In this document: piece by piece, positions 36,150 to 55,485 of the stretch
Layout: each line of letters starts with the position of its first letter
Numbering within the stretch: the first letter of the stretch is position 1
NCBI GenBank assembly: GCA_017411385.1
Contig: JAFQQF010000018.1
Span: 29,594-93,593, forward strand
DNA: 64,000 bases
Direction: 5' to 3'
Origin: Ruminococcus sp.
GTDB lineage: Bacteria; Bacillota; Clostridia; Oscillospirales; Acutalibacteraceae
Position numbers and translations under genes: made by a program
The notes under the pieces: generated by a model
What the model was told of the DNA's origin: nothing
The model's input: only the letters and a program-made list of their open reading frames with translations
The model's database searches: none

Positions 36150-36178
36150 TTGACGTGGATTTTATGGTATGATATAAT
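36150..36178 (+). promoter_or_regulatory. Promoter of the dockerin/subtilase unit
   Basis: TTGACG (36150-36155) and TATAAT (36173-36178) are 17 bases apart. Transcription would begin near 36185, giving a leader of about 100 bases before the dockerin gene. Confidence 0.75.
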
Positions 36179-36286: not shown

Positions 36287-36898
36287 ATGAGATTTATTAA
36301 ATTAATCAGTCTTGTTGTGGCTTTTATCTTAGCTTTAGGCTGTGTTACTGTTGGCGCAGAAAGCTTTTCTGTGCCCGAAGTACTCCTTTTCGGCGACGTG
36401 GATATGGACGGGGTTGTAACCGTCAAGGATGCCACCGCTATCCAAAAGGGAATAGCAGAGCTTACTTATCTTACAAGCGTTCAGAGATTTCTCTGTGACC
36501 CTGACAAGACAGGTGTTTCCATCAAGAACGCAACCGGTATTCAGAAGTGCGTTGCAGATTTAGATTGTGAACTGTGTTTTGGCGAAGAATTAGCTATGGA
36601 TTTTTACGATAAATTTTCTTGTGAAGTTAATATCGGTTCTACTAAATATTATACTGACGCTATTGTTGTTGTTGCAAAACCGGGATTAGAATTAATGTTA
36701 GAAGATTTTCCGGAGTTCGACTTTACTTCTATTGAAAGAATTGGTGGATTGTCAGATGTAACAAAACCCGCTCAGTATTTACTTTATTTAGAGAACCCCA
36801 GTTATGATAACGTTTATCAGGCCATTAAGACTCTTGACTATAGAGCAAATATAGATTTAGAAAGAGTTTTTGTTAATAGCTATACACTTCCAAATTAA
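36287..36898 (+). CDS. Secreted dockerin protein with a subtilisin-propeptide-like domain
   Basis: This is a 203-residue secreted protein. It has a signal peptide at 1-24, and a dockerin pair at about 36-93 with a good first calcium loop (DVDMDGVVTVKD) and a weaker second (DPDKTGVSIKN), each followed by an Ile-Gln-Lys helix. A C-terminal domain runs from about 122 to 203. That domain aligns by eye with residues 57-168 of the next protein, the prodomain of a subtilisin: both have DxIVVV, a central Phe-rich stretch, LLxL, then NVxxxIKTL and a Pro/Phe-Asn-Tyr end. Subtilisin propeptides fold and inhibit their enzymes, so an inhibitor is possible. DNA becomes AT-richer from about 36590. The ribosome binding site is CGGAGGT. 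Confidence 0.7.
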   Translation: MRFIKLISLVVAFILALGCVTVGAESFSVPEVLLFGDVDMDGVVTVKDATAIQKGIAELTYLTSVQRFLCDPDKTGVSIKNATGIQKCVADLDCELCFGEELAMDFYDKFSCEVNIGSTKYYTDAIVVVAKPGLELMLEDFPEFDFTSIERIGGLSDVTKPAQYLLYLENPSYDNVYQAIKTLDYRANIDLERVFVNSYTLPN

Positions 36899-36916
36899 TA
36901 GAAGGTGGTTGATTTT

Positions 36917-39220
36917 ATGAAAAAGCTTATTAGTATGGTAGTGTTGTTTTTTGTTGTGTTTTCTACTTTCTTCACTTCGGTATCTGCTATTGATGCTGAT
37001 AGTTTGACTATAAATAAAGATGTTTTGAGTACAGAAGATAAAAAATTGCTTTGTGATGCAAAAATTGATGAGGATTTCGAGTCGGATTCAATAGTGGTTG
37101 TGCTAAATAATGGGATAAGTAGAAATCTGAAGGAATATTCCCCAAAAGACTTTTCGGAAGTTTCGGCAATATCAGTTGAACATATTACAAAATTTACAAC
37201 AGAAATAATAAAAGAGCAGAGGGAATATACAGCCACAACAAAGAGTGCTAAACAAGGTTTAGACTTAACACGAAATAATGATGTTTTTTATGTTGAAGAG
37301 GACACCTTCCATCAGATTCTTCTTTTAAAATTAAATCAAAAGAGCAAACAAAACGTACTGGATTGTATTAAAACCCTTGAAAAAAGGGATGATGTAATGA
37401 TGGCATTTCCGAATTATTATACAAAGTGTTGTTTGATTGATAATGCTATCTCTACAACTGATGAATTTGTTGATTTAAATATTTCAAAGTCCTCAACTCC
37501 AAATGATACTTATATTGAATCTCAATGGGCTGTTCCTAAAATTAATTTACCAGATGCATGGAATATTTCTACTGGTAGTTCTTTGGTCAATGTTGGAATA
37601 ATTGATACTGGTATTATGGGAAATCACCCCGACTTAACTAATAGAGTCAATAGAACTCTAAGTAAGGATTTTACTGGAGGTAATTCTCCTTTGACAGATC
37701 CAGATGGTCACGGAACTCATGTAGCTGGTATTATTGGAGCAGAAGGTAATAATTCTAAAGGCATATCAGGTGTATGTTGGAATGTAGGTTTAGTAAGCCT
37801 CAAAGCAGCTGCTTATAATAGTGAGATAAATGATTACGCGTTATCGTATTCAACATTTGCCTCTGCCATTGATTATGCACAGGCGCAAAGTATTCCTATT
37901 GTTTCAGTTAGCTTTAGTGCTGCTGGTTATGATAGTTATTATTATGATGTAATAAGATACTATGATGGTTTGTTTGTTTGTGCGGCTGGAAATGCTGGGG
38001 TTAATATTAATAGCAGCAATAAATATATATTCACAAGTGCAAATACAGATAATATGATTTCTGTTGCTAATTCTACATCATCTGATAGCTTGTATAGTGG
38101 TTTAGATGGTCCGTCAAATTATGGCGTATCATATGTTGATCTAGCAGCCCCAGGTACTAGCATATATAGTACCTATAATGATGGTCAATATACACTTATG
38201 TCAGGAACGTCGATGGCTACACCGTATGTTGCTGGAGTAGCAGCTTTGCTAAAAAGTAAATTTCCTGAATTGAATACTCAACTAATCAAATCGTATATAT
38301 TGCAGGGAGTTGATAGCGTTACCTCATTAAATGGTAAAGTTTCAACCGGAGGAAGATTGAATGCATATAAATCGCTAAGTTCAGTCATACAATATAATAT
38401 AAAATATAATACAAATGGTGGGACAGGCACAATGAACGATACTGTTGTAACATATGGTATCCGGACTCCATTACGAAGTAATCAGTTTTCAAATAATGGA
38501 TTGCCGTTCATCGGTTGGCATGCTAAAAGAGCCTCGGATAACAAGTGGTATTATACAAATGGTACTTATTCTGGTTGGTATACTGAGGGTAATCAGCCAT
38601 CAGGTTACTATAAGTTTTTATATTCAGATGAACATATAGTATTTAATACAACTAACGTTAACGGTGATACTATTACAATGTATGCTCAGTGGTTAGATAT
38701 ACAGTATACGGTTAAATTTAACGGGAACGGTGGAGTTGGTTCTATGCAAAGCATAGATGTTCAATATGGTGTTCTTCAATTTCTTCCAAGCAACACGTTT
38801 GTAAAAAACGGATATTCTTTTGATTTTTGGTATGCTAAAGATGAGCAGGGTGAAGTGTATTGTGCAAAGCAAGGAGGATTGTTTGGCTGGTTTCCTATTG
38901 ATGCACGCGAATCTGGGTATTCTACAAAAATGATAGGTGACACTGGAGTTGCACATTCTTTTGAATATTTGGAGGATGGAGATGTGATTACTCTGTATGC
39001 ATACTGGATGCCTGACTCAGGTGAGCTGGGTGATGTTGATAATAATGGTAATGTTACGGTAAACGATTCTACAATTATTCAAAAGTATATGGCTGGGCTA
39101 GTTTCCCTTTCGGCTAGTGAACTTTTGAGGGCAGATGTTAATTTTGATGGTGTAGTTAATATAAAAGATGTGTCTGCGATACAAAAGTATGTTTCAGGAA
39201 TTATTGATATTTTTGTATGA
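36917..39220 (+). CDS. Secreted subtilisin-like protease with InlB-type repeats and C-terminal dockerin
   Basis: This is a 767-residue secreted S8 peptidase. It has a signal peptide at 1-24, an I9-like prodomain at about 55-168, and a catalytic domain at about 203-455. Asp230 (IIDTG), His265 (DGHGTH), oxyanion Asn359 (AAGN) and Ser432 (GTSMATP) are all intact. Two Listeria-Bacteroides (Flg_new) repeats follow at about 460-665, beginning YNTNGGTG and FNGNGGVG. A dockerin with two calcium loops (DVDNNGNVTVND and DVNFDGVVNIKD) is at about 703-767. It begins 18 bases after the dockerin/propeptide-like gene. Codons are strongly AT-rich, unlike neighbours, suggesting transfer. ATG at 36917 follows AAGGTGG. 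Confidence 0.92.
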   Translation: MKKLISMVVLFFVVFSTFFTSVSAIDADSLTINKDVLSTEDKKLLCDAKIDEDFESDSIVVVLNNGISRNLKEYSPKDFSEVSAISVEHITKFTTEIIKEQREYTATTKSAKQGLDLTRNNDVFYVEEDTFHQILLLKLNQKSKQNVLDCIKTLEKRDDVMMAFPNYYTKCCLIDNAISTTDEFVDLNISKSSTPNDTYIESQWAVPKINLPDAWNISTGSSLVNVGIIDTGIMGNHPDLTNRVNRTLSKDFTGGNSPLTDPDGHGTHVAGIIGAEGNNSKGISGVCWNVGLVSLKAAAYNSEINDYALSYSTFASAIDYAQAQSIPIVSVSFSAAGYDSYYYDVIRYYDGLFVCAAGNAGVNINSSNKYIFTSANTDNMISVANSTSSDSLYSGLDGPSNYGVSYVDLAAPGTSIYSTYNDGQYTLMSGTSMATPYVAGVAALLKSKFPELNTQLIKSYILQGVDSVTSLNGKVSTGGRLNAYKSLSSVIQYNIKYNTNGGTGTMNDTVVTYGIRTPLRSNQFSNNGLPFIGWHAKRASDNKWYYTNGTYSGWYTEGNQPSGYYKFLYSDEHIVFNTTNVNGDTITMYAQWLDIQYTVKFNGNGGVGSMQSIDVQYGVLQFLPSNTFVKNGYSFDFWYAKDEQGEVYCAKQGGLFGWFPIDARESGYSTKMIGDTGVAHSFEYLEDGDVITLYAYWMPDSGELGDVDNNGNVTVNDSTIIQKYMAGLVSLSASELLRADVNFDGVVNIKDVSAIQKYVSGIIDIFV

Positions 39221-39238
39221 TTATTATTTATAAATAGC

Positions 39239-39280
39239 AAAGAGAGCACACAGAAAAGCTGTGTGCTCTCTTTATTTTTT
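39239..39280. terminator. Terminator between subtilase and gpsA
   Basis: A perfect stem of 13-15 bases (39239-39253 with 39259-39273; AGAGAGCACACAG against its complement) with an AAAAG loop is followed by TTATTTTTT on the plus strand. It lies between convergent genes and may also serve gpsA. Confidence 0.88.
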
Positions 39281-53962: not shown

Positions 53963-55485
53963 TGAGAATTTTTAAAGCTTTTGTTTCACTTTTGTTGGTG
54001 TTACTGCTGATGTTTTCTACATTTATTGTAGCCTCAGCTTTTGACCCCAAACCCTATTATCTTGGCGATGCAGACCTTGACGATGCTGTTAACATCAAGG
54101 ATGCAACTCTTATTCAAAAGCACGTTGCCTCTATTGTGACTCTTGAAGGCTACGCACTTCTAACAGCAGATGCAGACGAGGATTCAAGTCTTACGGTTAA
54201 GGATGCAACCACCATTCAGAAGTATGTTGCAAGTCTTCCTGTAAACCATCCTGTAGGTGAGATTATTACCGTTAATACTGAACCTGTAATTCCCACCAAC
54301 ATTCCTACTGAAGAGCCAACGCAGGAGCCTACCGAAGAACCCACAACAGCTCCATCAGAACCGGAGGATAAAATGGATACAAATATTACTATTTACTTCT
54401 CAAACAATAAAAACTGGAACGTTGTAAATGCATATCTTTATAATGAGGAAAAGGGCATTGAGAACGATACTTGGCCCGGTGTTGCAATGACTCTTCTCGG
54501 TACAAATGACTTCGGTGAGAAGATTTACAAAATGGACGTAGATGTGTCAGAATATAACAGAGTTGTATTTAATAACGGCACCAGCCAAACTATGAATGCA
54601 GCACTTTCAGTTGCAAGCTCAGGCTTCTATATTGCCAAGGATACACCCAAGAAGTCTATGGCTCTGGGAGTGTATGCTTATGACGAGGCAAACTACGGCG
54701 AGCAAACAGTTGTTAAACTTGACTATCCCGACGGCTATAAAAAGCCCATCACAATTTGGACTCCCAATGGATACAATGCTGCAGACACAACCAAGAAATA
54801 CCCCGTAATTTATCTTCTTGACGGTCAGAACCAGTTCCTCGGTACAATCAACAGCTACGGCGGCTGGGTAACCGATAAAATCGCAACCTGCCTGCAGAAC
54901 AACGGCCATGAAGGCTTTATTCTTGTTGGTATTGACAACTCCTATAACCGTGATAACGAACTTACCCCAAACTTAGGTGACATTGTTCCTGAGTGTAAGC
55001 CTCTCGGTAACTTTGAAAACGGCTCAGGCGAGCGCTTCTCTGATTTCGTTGCAGATACAGTAGTACCTTACGTTCAGGCAAACTACAATGTTTCTCTCAA
55101 ACCCGAAGATAATGCTGTCATCGGTTCTTCTTCAGGTGGTATCGAGGCATTCTATATCGGTATGGAGAATATGGACATATTCGGTAACATCGGCGCACTT
55201 TCTCCTGCATTTATGCTGTTCCCCAAGAGCGACTGGGATAAATATCTTGCAAAGTTTGATTTCTCAGACGAGTCAACTCTCCCCAGAATTTATTTCTATA
55301 ATGGCGCAGGAGATTCATTGGAGGTTGAACTTAATCCCTATGCACAGGCTATGCCCCAGTGGATGGTAGCTCTCGGTTATCCCGAGGATAAGGTTGTATT
55401 CCGTCACGAGGACAGCTTTTCTCACAACGAATATGCATGGCGAATGATTATGCCCGAAACCATCGCATGGCTTTTTGAACTGTAA
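53962..55485 (+). CDS. Secreted dockerin-CBM-esterase (starch-scaffold-type enzyme)
   Basis: This is a 507-residue secreted multidomain protein. It has a signal peptide at 1-26, a dockerin at about 35-92 (calcium loops DADLDDAVNIKD and DADEDSSLTVKD), and a Pro/Thr/Glu linker at about 105-137. A beta-rich module at about 141-215 resembles starch-binding CBM26. An esterase-D-like alpha/beta hydrolase spans about 230-507 with nucleophile Ser390 (GSSSG) and a probable catalytic His488 (SHNEYAW). It may deacylate polysaccharide or starch-bound substrates as part of a dockerin-cohesin assembly such as an amylosome. ATG at 53962 overlaps the addA stop (TGATG) and follows AAGGAGGT inside addA. The GTG three bases upstream is less likely. 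Confidence 0.85.
   Translation: MRIFKAFVSLLLVLLLMFSTFIVASAFDPKPYYLGDADLDDAVNIKDATLIQKHVASIVTLEGYALLTADADEDSSLTVKDATTIQKYVASLPVNHPVGEIITVNTEPVIPTNIPTEEPTQEPTEEPTTAPSEPEDKMDTNITIYFSNNKNWNVVNAYLYNEEKGIENDTWPGVAMTLLGTNDFGEKIYKMDVDVSEYNRVVFNNGTSQTMNAALSVASSGFYIAKDTPKKSMALGVYAYDEANYGEQTVVKLDYPDGYKKPITIWTPNGYNAADTTKKYPVIYLLDGQNQFLGTINSYGGWVTDKIATCLQNNGHEGFILVGIDNSYNRDNELTPNLGDIVPECKPLGNFENGSGERFSDFVADTVVPYVQANYNVSLKPEDNAVIGSSSGGIEAFYIGMENMDIFGNIGALSPAFMLFPKSDWDKYLAKFDFSDESTLPRIYFYNGAGDSLEVELNPYAQAMPQWMVALGYPEDKVVFRHEDSFSHNEYAWRMIMPETIAWLFEL

Follow-up and report, generated by a model that had tools for sequence, protein, structure and literature searches.

A 64,000-nucleotide stretch of a Ruminococcus sp. 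genome (contig JAFQQF010000018.1, positions 29,594 to 93,593; hereafter the window, whose coordinates are used unless another locus or contig is named) carries two adjacent genes on the forward strand, where the other features of this gene pair given below also lie. Gene 1 (36287..36898) encodes a secreted protein of 203 amino acids (protein 1) in which a dockerin-like module precedes a C-terminal part of about 100 residues that, as judged by sequence comparison, is homologous to subtilase propeptides. Gene 2, which ends at 39220, encodes a dockerin-subtilase (protein 2), and both genes lie where the initial annotation had placed them. We consider it probable that protein 1 mimics a subtilase propeptide as a free-standing protein, that it inhibits mainly the subtilase encoded by the next gene, and that it is attached to a cohesin scaffold through its dockerin.

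Homology between the two proteins was evident at several levels. When residues 108-203 of protein 1 were aligned with the part of protein 2 that holds its propeptide, the score was 59, which one of 10,000 shuffles reached (BLOSUM62, gaps 11/1). The second half of this alignment is wrong because the protease propeptide (37034..37441) carries some 30-40 inserted residues that the gene 1 domain lacks; with gap opening 8 the domain aligned through the insertion, and none of 10,000 shuffles reached the resulting score of 75. A profile built from 16 propeptides and holding no dockerin-borne domain matched protein 1 among 505 open reading frames with an E value of 4.5e-5, made up of two stretches that are each weak singly (0.08 and 0.04), and still did so with 1.3e-4 after removal of its neighbour's propeptide. 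The same profile matched the relatives of protein 1, with domain E values of 5e-13 for L126_6404 and 2.6e-12 for L124_6931 and a weakest whole-protein E value of 0.045. Conversely, a profile of eight dockerin-borne domains matched the propeptide of the window subtilase (E 0.002) and those of the related subtilases in G456, G438 and G010, and did not match that of G458. Profile-profile comparison with hhalign of 22 dockerin-borne domains against the 16 propeptides yielded a probability of 98.7 and a score of 91.5, while 200 column shuffles gave at most 20.8. The score was 91.7 once the window rows were removed from both sides, and 93.9 (shuffles up to 18.2) with a 17-row propeptide alignment whose extra row is a stand-alone protein without a protease domain (L117 2429-2986). 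The shuffle tests, the propeptide profile search and the profile-profile comparison together led us to reject chance resemblance. The alignment of the C-terminal part of protein 1 with the next gene's prodomain, which had been proposed by eye, was thus upheld, and the shared features listed in support of it (DxIVVV, LLxL, NVxxxIKTL and the Phe/Asn/Tyr end) were all found in the sequence.

Pairing of such a domain with a subtilase is repeated in related genomes. In our genus sample of 161 genomes, relatives of the catalytic domain of the window subtilase occurred in 18, the source genome included (E 1e-20 or better), and in eight of these 18 the gene directly before the subtilase encodes a dockerin protein that has a propeptide-like domain. 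Five show the window order, dockerin and then propeptide-like domain (G000, G010, G458, G438 and G456), and three show the reverse order, with one or two propeptide-like domains and the dockerin last (G443, G434 and G003; the G434 protease gene is broken by a stop). The gene pair singled out in the window was therefore recovered among relatives, its order being kept in five species and a reverse-order fusion standing beside another subtilase type in three more. G544 has a subtilase fragment next to a two-domain propeptide-like protein without dockerin; among the remaining related subtilases of the 18 no such neighbour was recognised, nor was one seen in the 3.6-3.7 kb loci examined around the other two subtilases of the source genome. 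Seen from the side of the inhibitor, we examined 33 dockerin proteins with a propeptide-like domain, which are not a census: propeptide matches occurred in 55 of the 161 genomes, and only some of those loci were examined. For eight of the 33 the locus contains a subtilase, which is always the gene immediately 3′ on the same strand, 18 to 173 bases away. We judged this adjacency, without computing it, to be far beyond chance, yet not obligatory.

The reverse-order proteins also bear on how the domain should be named. Those of G443 and G434 matched PF22148 (Fervidolysin N-terminal prodomain) with 22.7 and 23.1 bits against a cut-off of 21, and that of G003 fell just below at 20.4; neither the window proteins nor L126_6404, the window-type relative scanned, matched this model. 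The initial annotation had likened the domain to the I9 family. Its propeptide relationship stands, and the family name was slightly off, given that two reverse-order relatives match PF22148 and no PF05922 match was listed.

Known propeptide inhibitors place their C-terminal tail in the active-site cleft, and two of them became more potent toward subtilisin BPN′ when six C-terminal residues were exchanged (PMC10580911). By analogy (PMC6993865, PMC10580911), the C-terminal strand and tail of protein 1 (residues 190-203; 36854..36895) would be expected to enter the cleft of the target. We compared the five window-type inhibitor tails with the five propeptide tails and scored all 120 pairings. 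The neighbour pairing gave the best total for 7, 8, 9, 11, 12 and 13 aligned residues, with 2 to 4 of the 120 pairings reaching it, and the inhibitor tail was most like its own neighbour's propeptide tail in four of the five pairs, with one tie (G438); the propeptide tails of G438 and G456 are identical. No neighbour preference was detected for the strand and helix preceding the tail (25/120) or for the domain minus its tail (60/120). By eye, 14 of the 15 short proteins with the architecture of protein 1 stop no more than a few residues from where the last strand is expected.

From these observations we infer inhibition, the identity of the target, docking, a shared transcript and a protective role in the following form. 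The propeptide-like domain would bind the mature catalytic domain of the subtilase, and the C-terminal tail would occupy the active-site cleft as a product-like inhibitor. The dockerin would bring the inhibitor to a cohesin scaffold, where the main target would be the next-gene subtilase, probably made from the same transcript. Proteins borne on the scaffold would then be shielded while the protease acts outward.

Several observations weigh against this interpretation. Pfam listed no propeptide family for either window protein taken singly, and its fervidolysin-prodomain model had no match in the source genome. Sequence searches of the PDB with the window proteins and three profiles returned nothing convincing (best E values of 0.09 to 1.8, chance-like), and an NCBIfam search with the window proteins returned no useful match. 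We accept the homology because the family-level profile evidence is decisive, despite these negative single-sequence searches. The tail resemblance fails for G456 and is tied for G438; for 10 aligned residues the neighbour pairing was not the best under BLOSUM (99 versus a best of 107, with 6 of 120 reaching it) and only tied for best by identity (8/120). Since there are five pairs, and the alignment window was chosen after the data had been seen, the tail result is suggestive only. Moreover, the C-terminal tail is not essential in some propeptide inhibitors, according to PMC10580911, and at a helix-capping position where subtilisin BPN′ has Glu, protein 1 has Phe (by eye), as does its neighbour's propeptide.

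The evidence on docking is mixed. At E 0.01 the source genome has 57 dockerin matches; its three cohesins all lie on one contig. By eye, the first dockerin repeat of protein 1 is canonical, and that of the 15 short members in general is good; their second repeat is shortened and lacks the usual last calcium ligand, which also speaks against the interpretation. The subtilase has a dockerin in all five window-type pairs (three of them scanned with Pfam, the remaining two judged by reading). It lacks one in all three reverse-order pairs (by reading), a further unfavourable point, and the two subtilases of these pairs that were scanned have three CBM26 starch-binding modules each. Subtilases of this make, secreted and with no dockerin, lie at L159 (4303-6516) and L161 (3373-5559), each preceded by a propeptide-like/dockerin protein. 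Because of the degenerate second repeat and the reverse-order subtilases without dockerin, the idea that both partners would sit on one scaffold is the weakest part of the earlier proposal.

A further objection comes from the pairing itself, as 25 of the 33 proteins examined have no subtilase within the flanks covered (0 to 8.5 kb on either side; L196 ends at a contig end). The main target may therefore often be another protease. A rule that every such domain adjoins a protease had to be rejected on the same count. The initial annotation had named, as a finding against its proposal, a domain that is common without a subtilase neighbour and also fails to bind the protease; the first half of this holds among the proteins examined, as these 25 stand without such a neighbour.

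The best-surviving alternative builds on this objection and holds that protein 1 is a protease inhibitor aimed mainly at foreign proteases, of the host gut, of competitors or of plant material, with the adjacent subtilase being the source of the domain or one target of several. Such a role fits the 25 domains without a subtilase nearby, and it has a parallel in the cellulosomal inhibitors of Clostridium cellulovorans, which PMC6547498 describes as inhibiting plant cysteine proteases. It also fits the way in which copies have diverged. Four tandem pairs keep dockerin DNA that is 95-97% identical but diverge in the inhibitor domain (48-53%), as would be expected of a diversifying repertoire. Against it stand the eight adjacent cases, in all of which the subtilase is the next gene on the same strand, and the tails, which fit the neighbour best in four of five window-type pairs, one tie included. 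On balance we regard a mainly foreign target as rather unlikely.

Divergence of the inhibitor part is not confined to the tandem copies. Among the 15 short members the mean identity is 64% for the dockerin and 40% for the inhibitor domain, and the dockerin is the more alike of the two in 104 of 105 pairwise comparisons. The subtilase-adjoining copy of G438 has an inhibitor domain that is 98% identical in DNA to that of a copy on another contig, and a signal region that is 95% like that of a third copy, although the inhibitor domains of these two are just 49% alike. Because the G438 copy matches two different copies, the inhibitor domain was presumably swapped or converted between cassettes. 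These patterns point to modules that would be exchanged or converted, with an inhibitor part that would be diversifying.

Phylogenetic analysis suggested that the fusion of dockerin and propeptide-like domain did not happen only once. The tree (57 domains, 105 columns, midpoint root) has many unresolved forks and bootstrap values that are not settled, and one of its rows labelled as propeptide is the stand-alone L117 protein (2429-2986). All 22 window-type domains fall into one group (97/88), and the group next to it combines further propeptides with those of the window-type subtilases. Of the 13 reverse-order domains, 11 cluster with the propeptides of the three subtilases of the type that they precede (100/98), and the remaining two (L131 and L135) are placed elsewhere. 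Given these groupings, in which reverse-order domains are nearest to the propeptides of their own neighbours, there seem to have been at least two, perhaps three, separate fusions. Taking these patterns together, we tentatively propose, as a possibility that falls short of an even chance, a constant/variable repertoire in which a near-constant dockerin part is combined with an exchangeable propeptide-derived inhibitor domain, new inhibitors being repeatedly captured from the propeptides of resident subtilases and shown on the cohesin scaffold.

The same divergence could be read differently, namely as that of a propeptide fold that was kept while protease binding was lost, leaving a structural or adhesion module. 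The mean identity of about 40% among the 15 short members, the capping position that is not conserved (by eye) and the many copies without a neighbouring subtilase would be compatible with such a loss. A module of this kind would leave unexplained the repeated placement next to subtilases, the matched tail and the way in which 14 of the 15 short members terminate close to the last expected strand, as known propeptide inhibitors do, and we consider it improbable. Least likely of all, and in our view a very poor candidate, is a folding helper acting in trans on the subtilase like an intramolecular chaperone rather than as a standing inhibitor: propeptides of mesophilic bacterial subtilases are chaperones as well as inhibitors (PMC10580911), but the five window-type neighbour subtilases have propeptides of their own, folding requires neither a dockerin nor a domain that changes fast, and most copies examined have no subtilase nearby.

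The window-type architecture was found in a limited set of genomes. When the 161 genus genomes were searched with a window-type profile at an E threshold of 0.01, 22 had a match, and in 11 of these the match was strong (E <1e-19). These 11 genomes hold 22 window-type proteins, comprising the 15 short, window-like ones and seven longer ones with other domains before the dockerin. In an order sample of 394 genomes from 168 genera, nine genomes matched, including that of the window. The other matches, among whose loci L112 and L113 were covered in part, were weaker (best E 1.9e-9); the interpretable ones comprise propeptides of subtilases as well as stand-alone propeptide-like proteins built differently, and the one in G419 looks like chance. 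The relatives are metagenome assemblies labelled Ruminococcus sp., Clostridia or Eubacteriales bacterium, and the stated sources (seven loci) are goat cecum and roe deer gut. Long forms at L050, L123, L125 and L127, in four genomes, lie near genes that by eye resemble rpsL, rpsG and fusA, and in some tuf. The reverse-order proteins at L188 (3865-4719), L191 (4289-5092), L196 (3367-4137) and L195 (3670-4659) follow gene pairs that look like sigma and anti-sigma factors (by eye) and have no subtilase near. Elsewhere in the order, proteins at L108, L110, L111, L114, L115 and L117 have one to three propeptide-like domains with no dockerin seen, and several adjoin subtilases or fragments of them; the matches of L110 and L111 are weak. 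Some of these dockerin-less proteins may be truncated protease duplicates.

Another family of small, secreted proteins, which combine a dockerin with an unnamed domain (by eye), was seen at L047 (7666-8376), L048 (8132-8815 and 8911-9654), L035 (2675-3364) and L128 (7762-8787). It recurs beside or fused to propeptide-like domains, and at L035 beside another subtilase of the source genome. Apart from the dockerin, the four members scanned had no Pfam match above cut-off. This family could represent a further type of inhibitor.

The layout of the locus is that of a two-gene unit in a source genome of 2.1 Mb and 62 contigs. A promoter-like site, TTGACG-17-TATAAT (36150..36178), lies ahead of gene 1 and matches the consensus at 11 of 12 positions, with TG ahead of the second hexamer; sites of this type are no commoner than in shuffled sequence (17 found versus 15.9). 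Protein 1 begins with a signal peptide (residues 1-24, 36287..36358; by eye), followed by the dockerin-like module (residues 34-97, 36386..36577), an atypical one for which PF00404 gave E values of 0.016 and, in a second scan, 0.007, both below the cut-off. The propeptide-like domain, of fervidolysin/I9 type according to sequence and profile comparisons, occupies residues 105-203 (36599..36895). A serpin domain was looked for in protein 1, and Pfam gave no serpin match at E values up to 1. Only 18 bases separate the end of gene 1 from ATG 36917 of gene 2, and they include a ribosome-binding-like site, AGAAGGTGG (36900..36908; by eye). This ATG, 8 bases past AGAAGGTGG, looks a likelier start for gene 2 (36917..39220, 767 amino acids) than the listed GTG at 36905 (771 amino acids). 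Protein 2 consists of a signal peptide, the propeptide, an S8 catalytic domain (37586..38311; PF00082, E 2.8e-42), Listeria-Bacteroides repeats (PF09479, best of two at 38705..38860) and a C-terminal type I dockerin (39026..39193; PF00404, E 4.8e-11). The Asp, His, Asn and Ser motifs of the protease are all present and begin at residues 228, 263, 356 and 430. Because signal peptide, propeptide and catalytic motifs are all encoded within gene 2 itself, we rejected the possibility of a split or broken protease gene. A terminator-like hairpin (39239..39273) follows gene 2 and closes the unit. The window holds a further dockerin at 54061-54228, within a gene of about 508 residues.

Several known inhibitors resemble the product of gene 1 in part. 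PinA-type serpins differ from it in having the serpin fold and a suicide mechanism. Among other cellulosomal protease inhibitors, cyspins resemble papain propeptides, and Dpi targets cysteine proteases. The free inhibitors POIA1, yeast peptidase B inhibitor and SPI-1 are not known to have a docking module or an operon pairing, unlike gene 1. Cellulosomal serpins of the PinA type (Kang 2006; O Cuiv 2013) are cited in PMC5301203, PMC3573020 and PMC12484212 and are, like the putative inhibitor protein 1, dockerin-borne. The source genome has two serpin genes on other contigs (C43:105182-106261 and C55:159373-160437), and serpins occur in 106 of the 161 genus genomes. Dpi of Clostridium cellulolyticum (Xu 2014) and the cyspins of C. 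cellulovorans (Meguro 2011) are cited as cellulosomal protease inhibitors in PMC12484212, PMC6547498 and PMC4305082. As far as these citing papers are available, Dpi is dockerin-borne like protein 1 and protects cellulases, cyspins differ from protein 1 in targeting cysteine proteases, and no neighbouring cognate protease is mentioned for either, again unlike gene 1.

A parallel in gene arrangement comes from Plasmodium: SUB1-ProM mimics a propeptide as a protein in its own right, its gene lies next to subtilase genes, and it potently inhibits SUB1 (PMC6993865). In the part of that paper available, it resembles gene 1 as a stand-alone propeptide-like protein in a conserved position next to subtilase genes; it differs in belonging to a eukaryotic parasite, and no dockerin or scaffold is mentioned for it there. 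POIA1, yeast peptidase B inhibitor and SPI-1, from fungi, yeast and plants, are free propeptide-like subtilase inhibitors, and C-terminal residues affect the potency of POIA1 and the yeast inhibitor (PMC6993865 and PMC10580911). A propeptide-type dockerin inhibitor was not found in the literature searched, which consisted mostly of titles and abstract openings and covered few subscription journals, whereas serpins, Dpi and cyspins were. What we rate as new here is a putative propeptide-type inhibitor with a dockerin next to a subtilase, dockerin-borne inhibitors as such (serpins, Dpi, cyspins) being already known.

Cellulosome-like complexes work in protease-rich guts and bear proteases themselves, which raises the question of how they escape damage. 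A dockable, propeptide-derived inhibitor encoded together with its likely target would offer a testable model of how proteolysis may be controlled locally on the scaffold. In addition, the five natural pairs with their diverged tails may serve as a system in which to study how propeptide inhibitors gain specificity.

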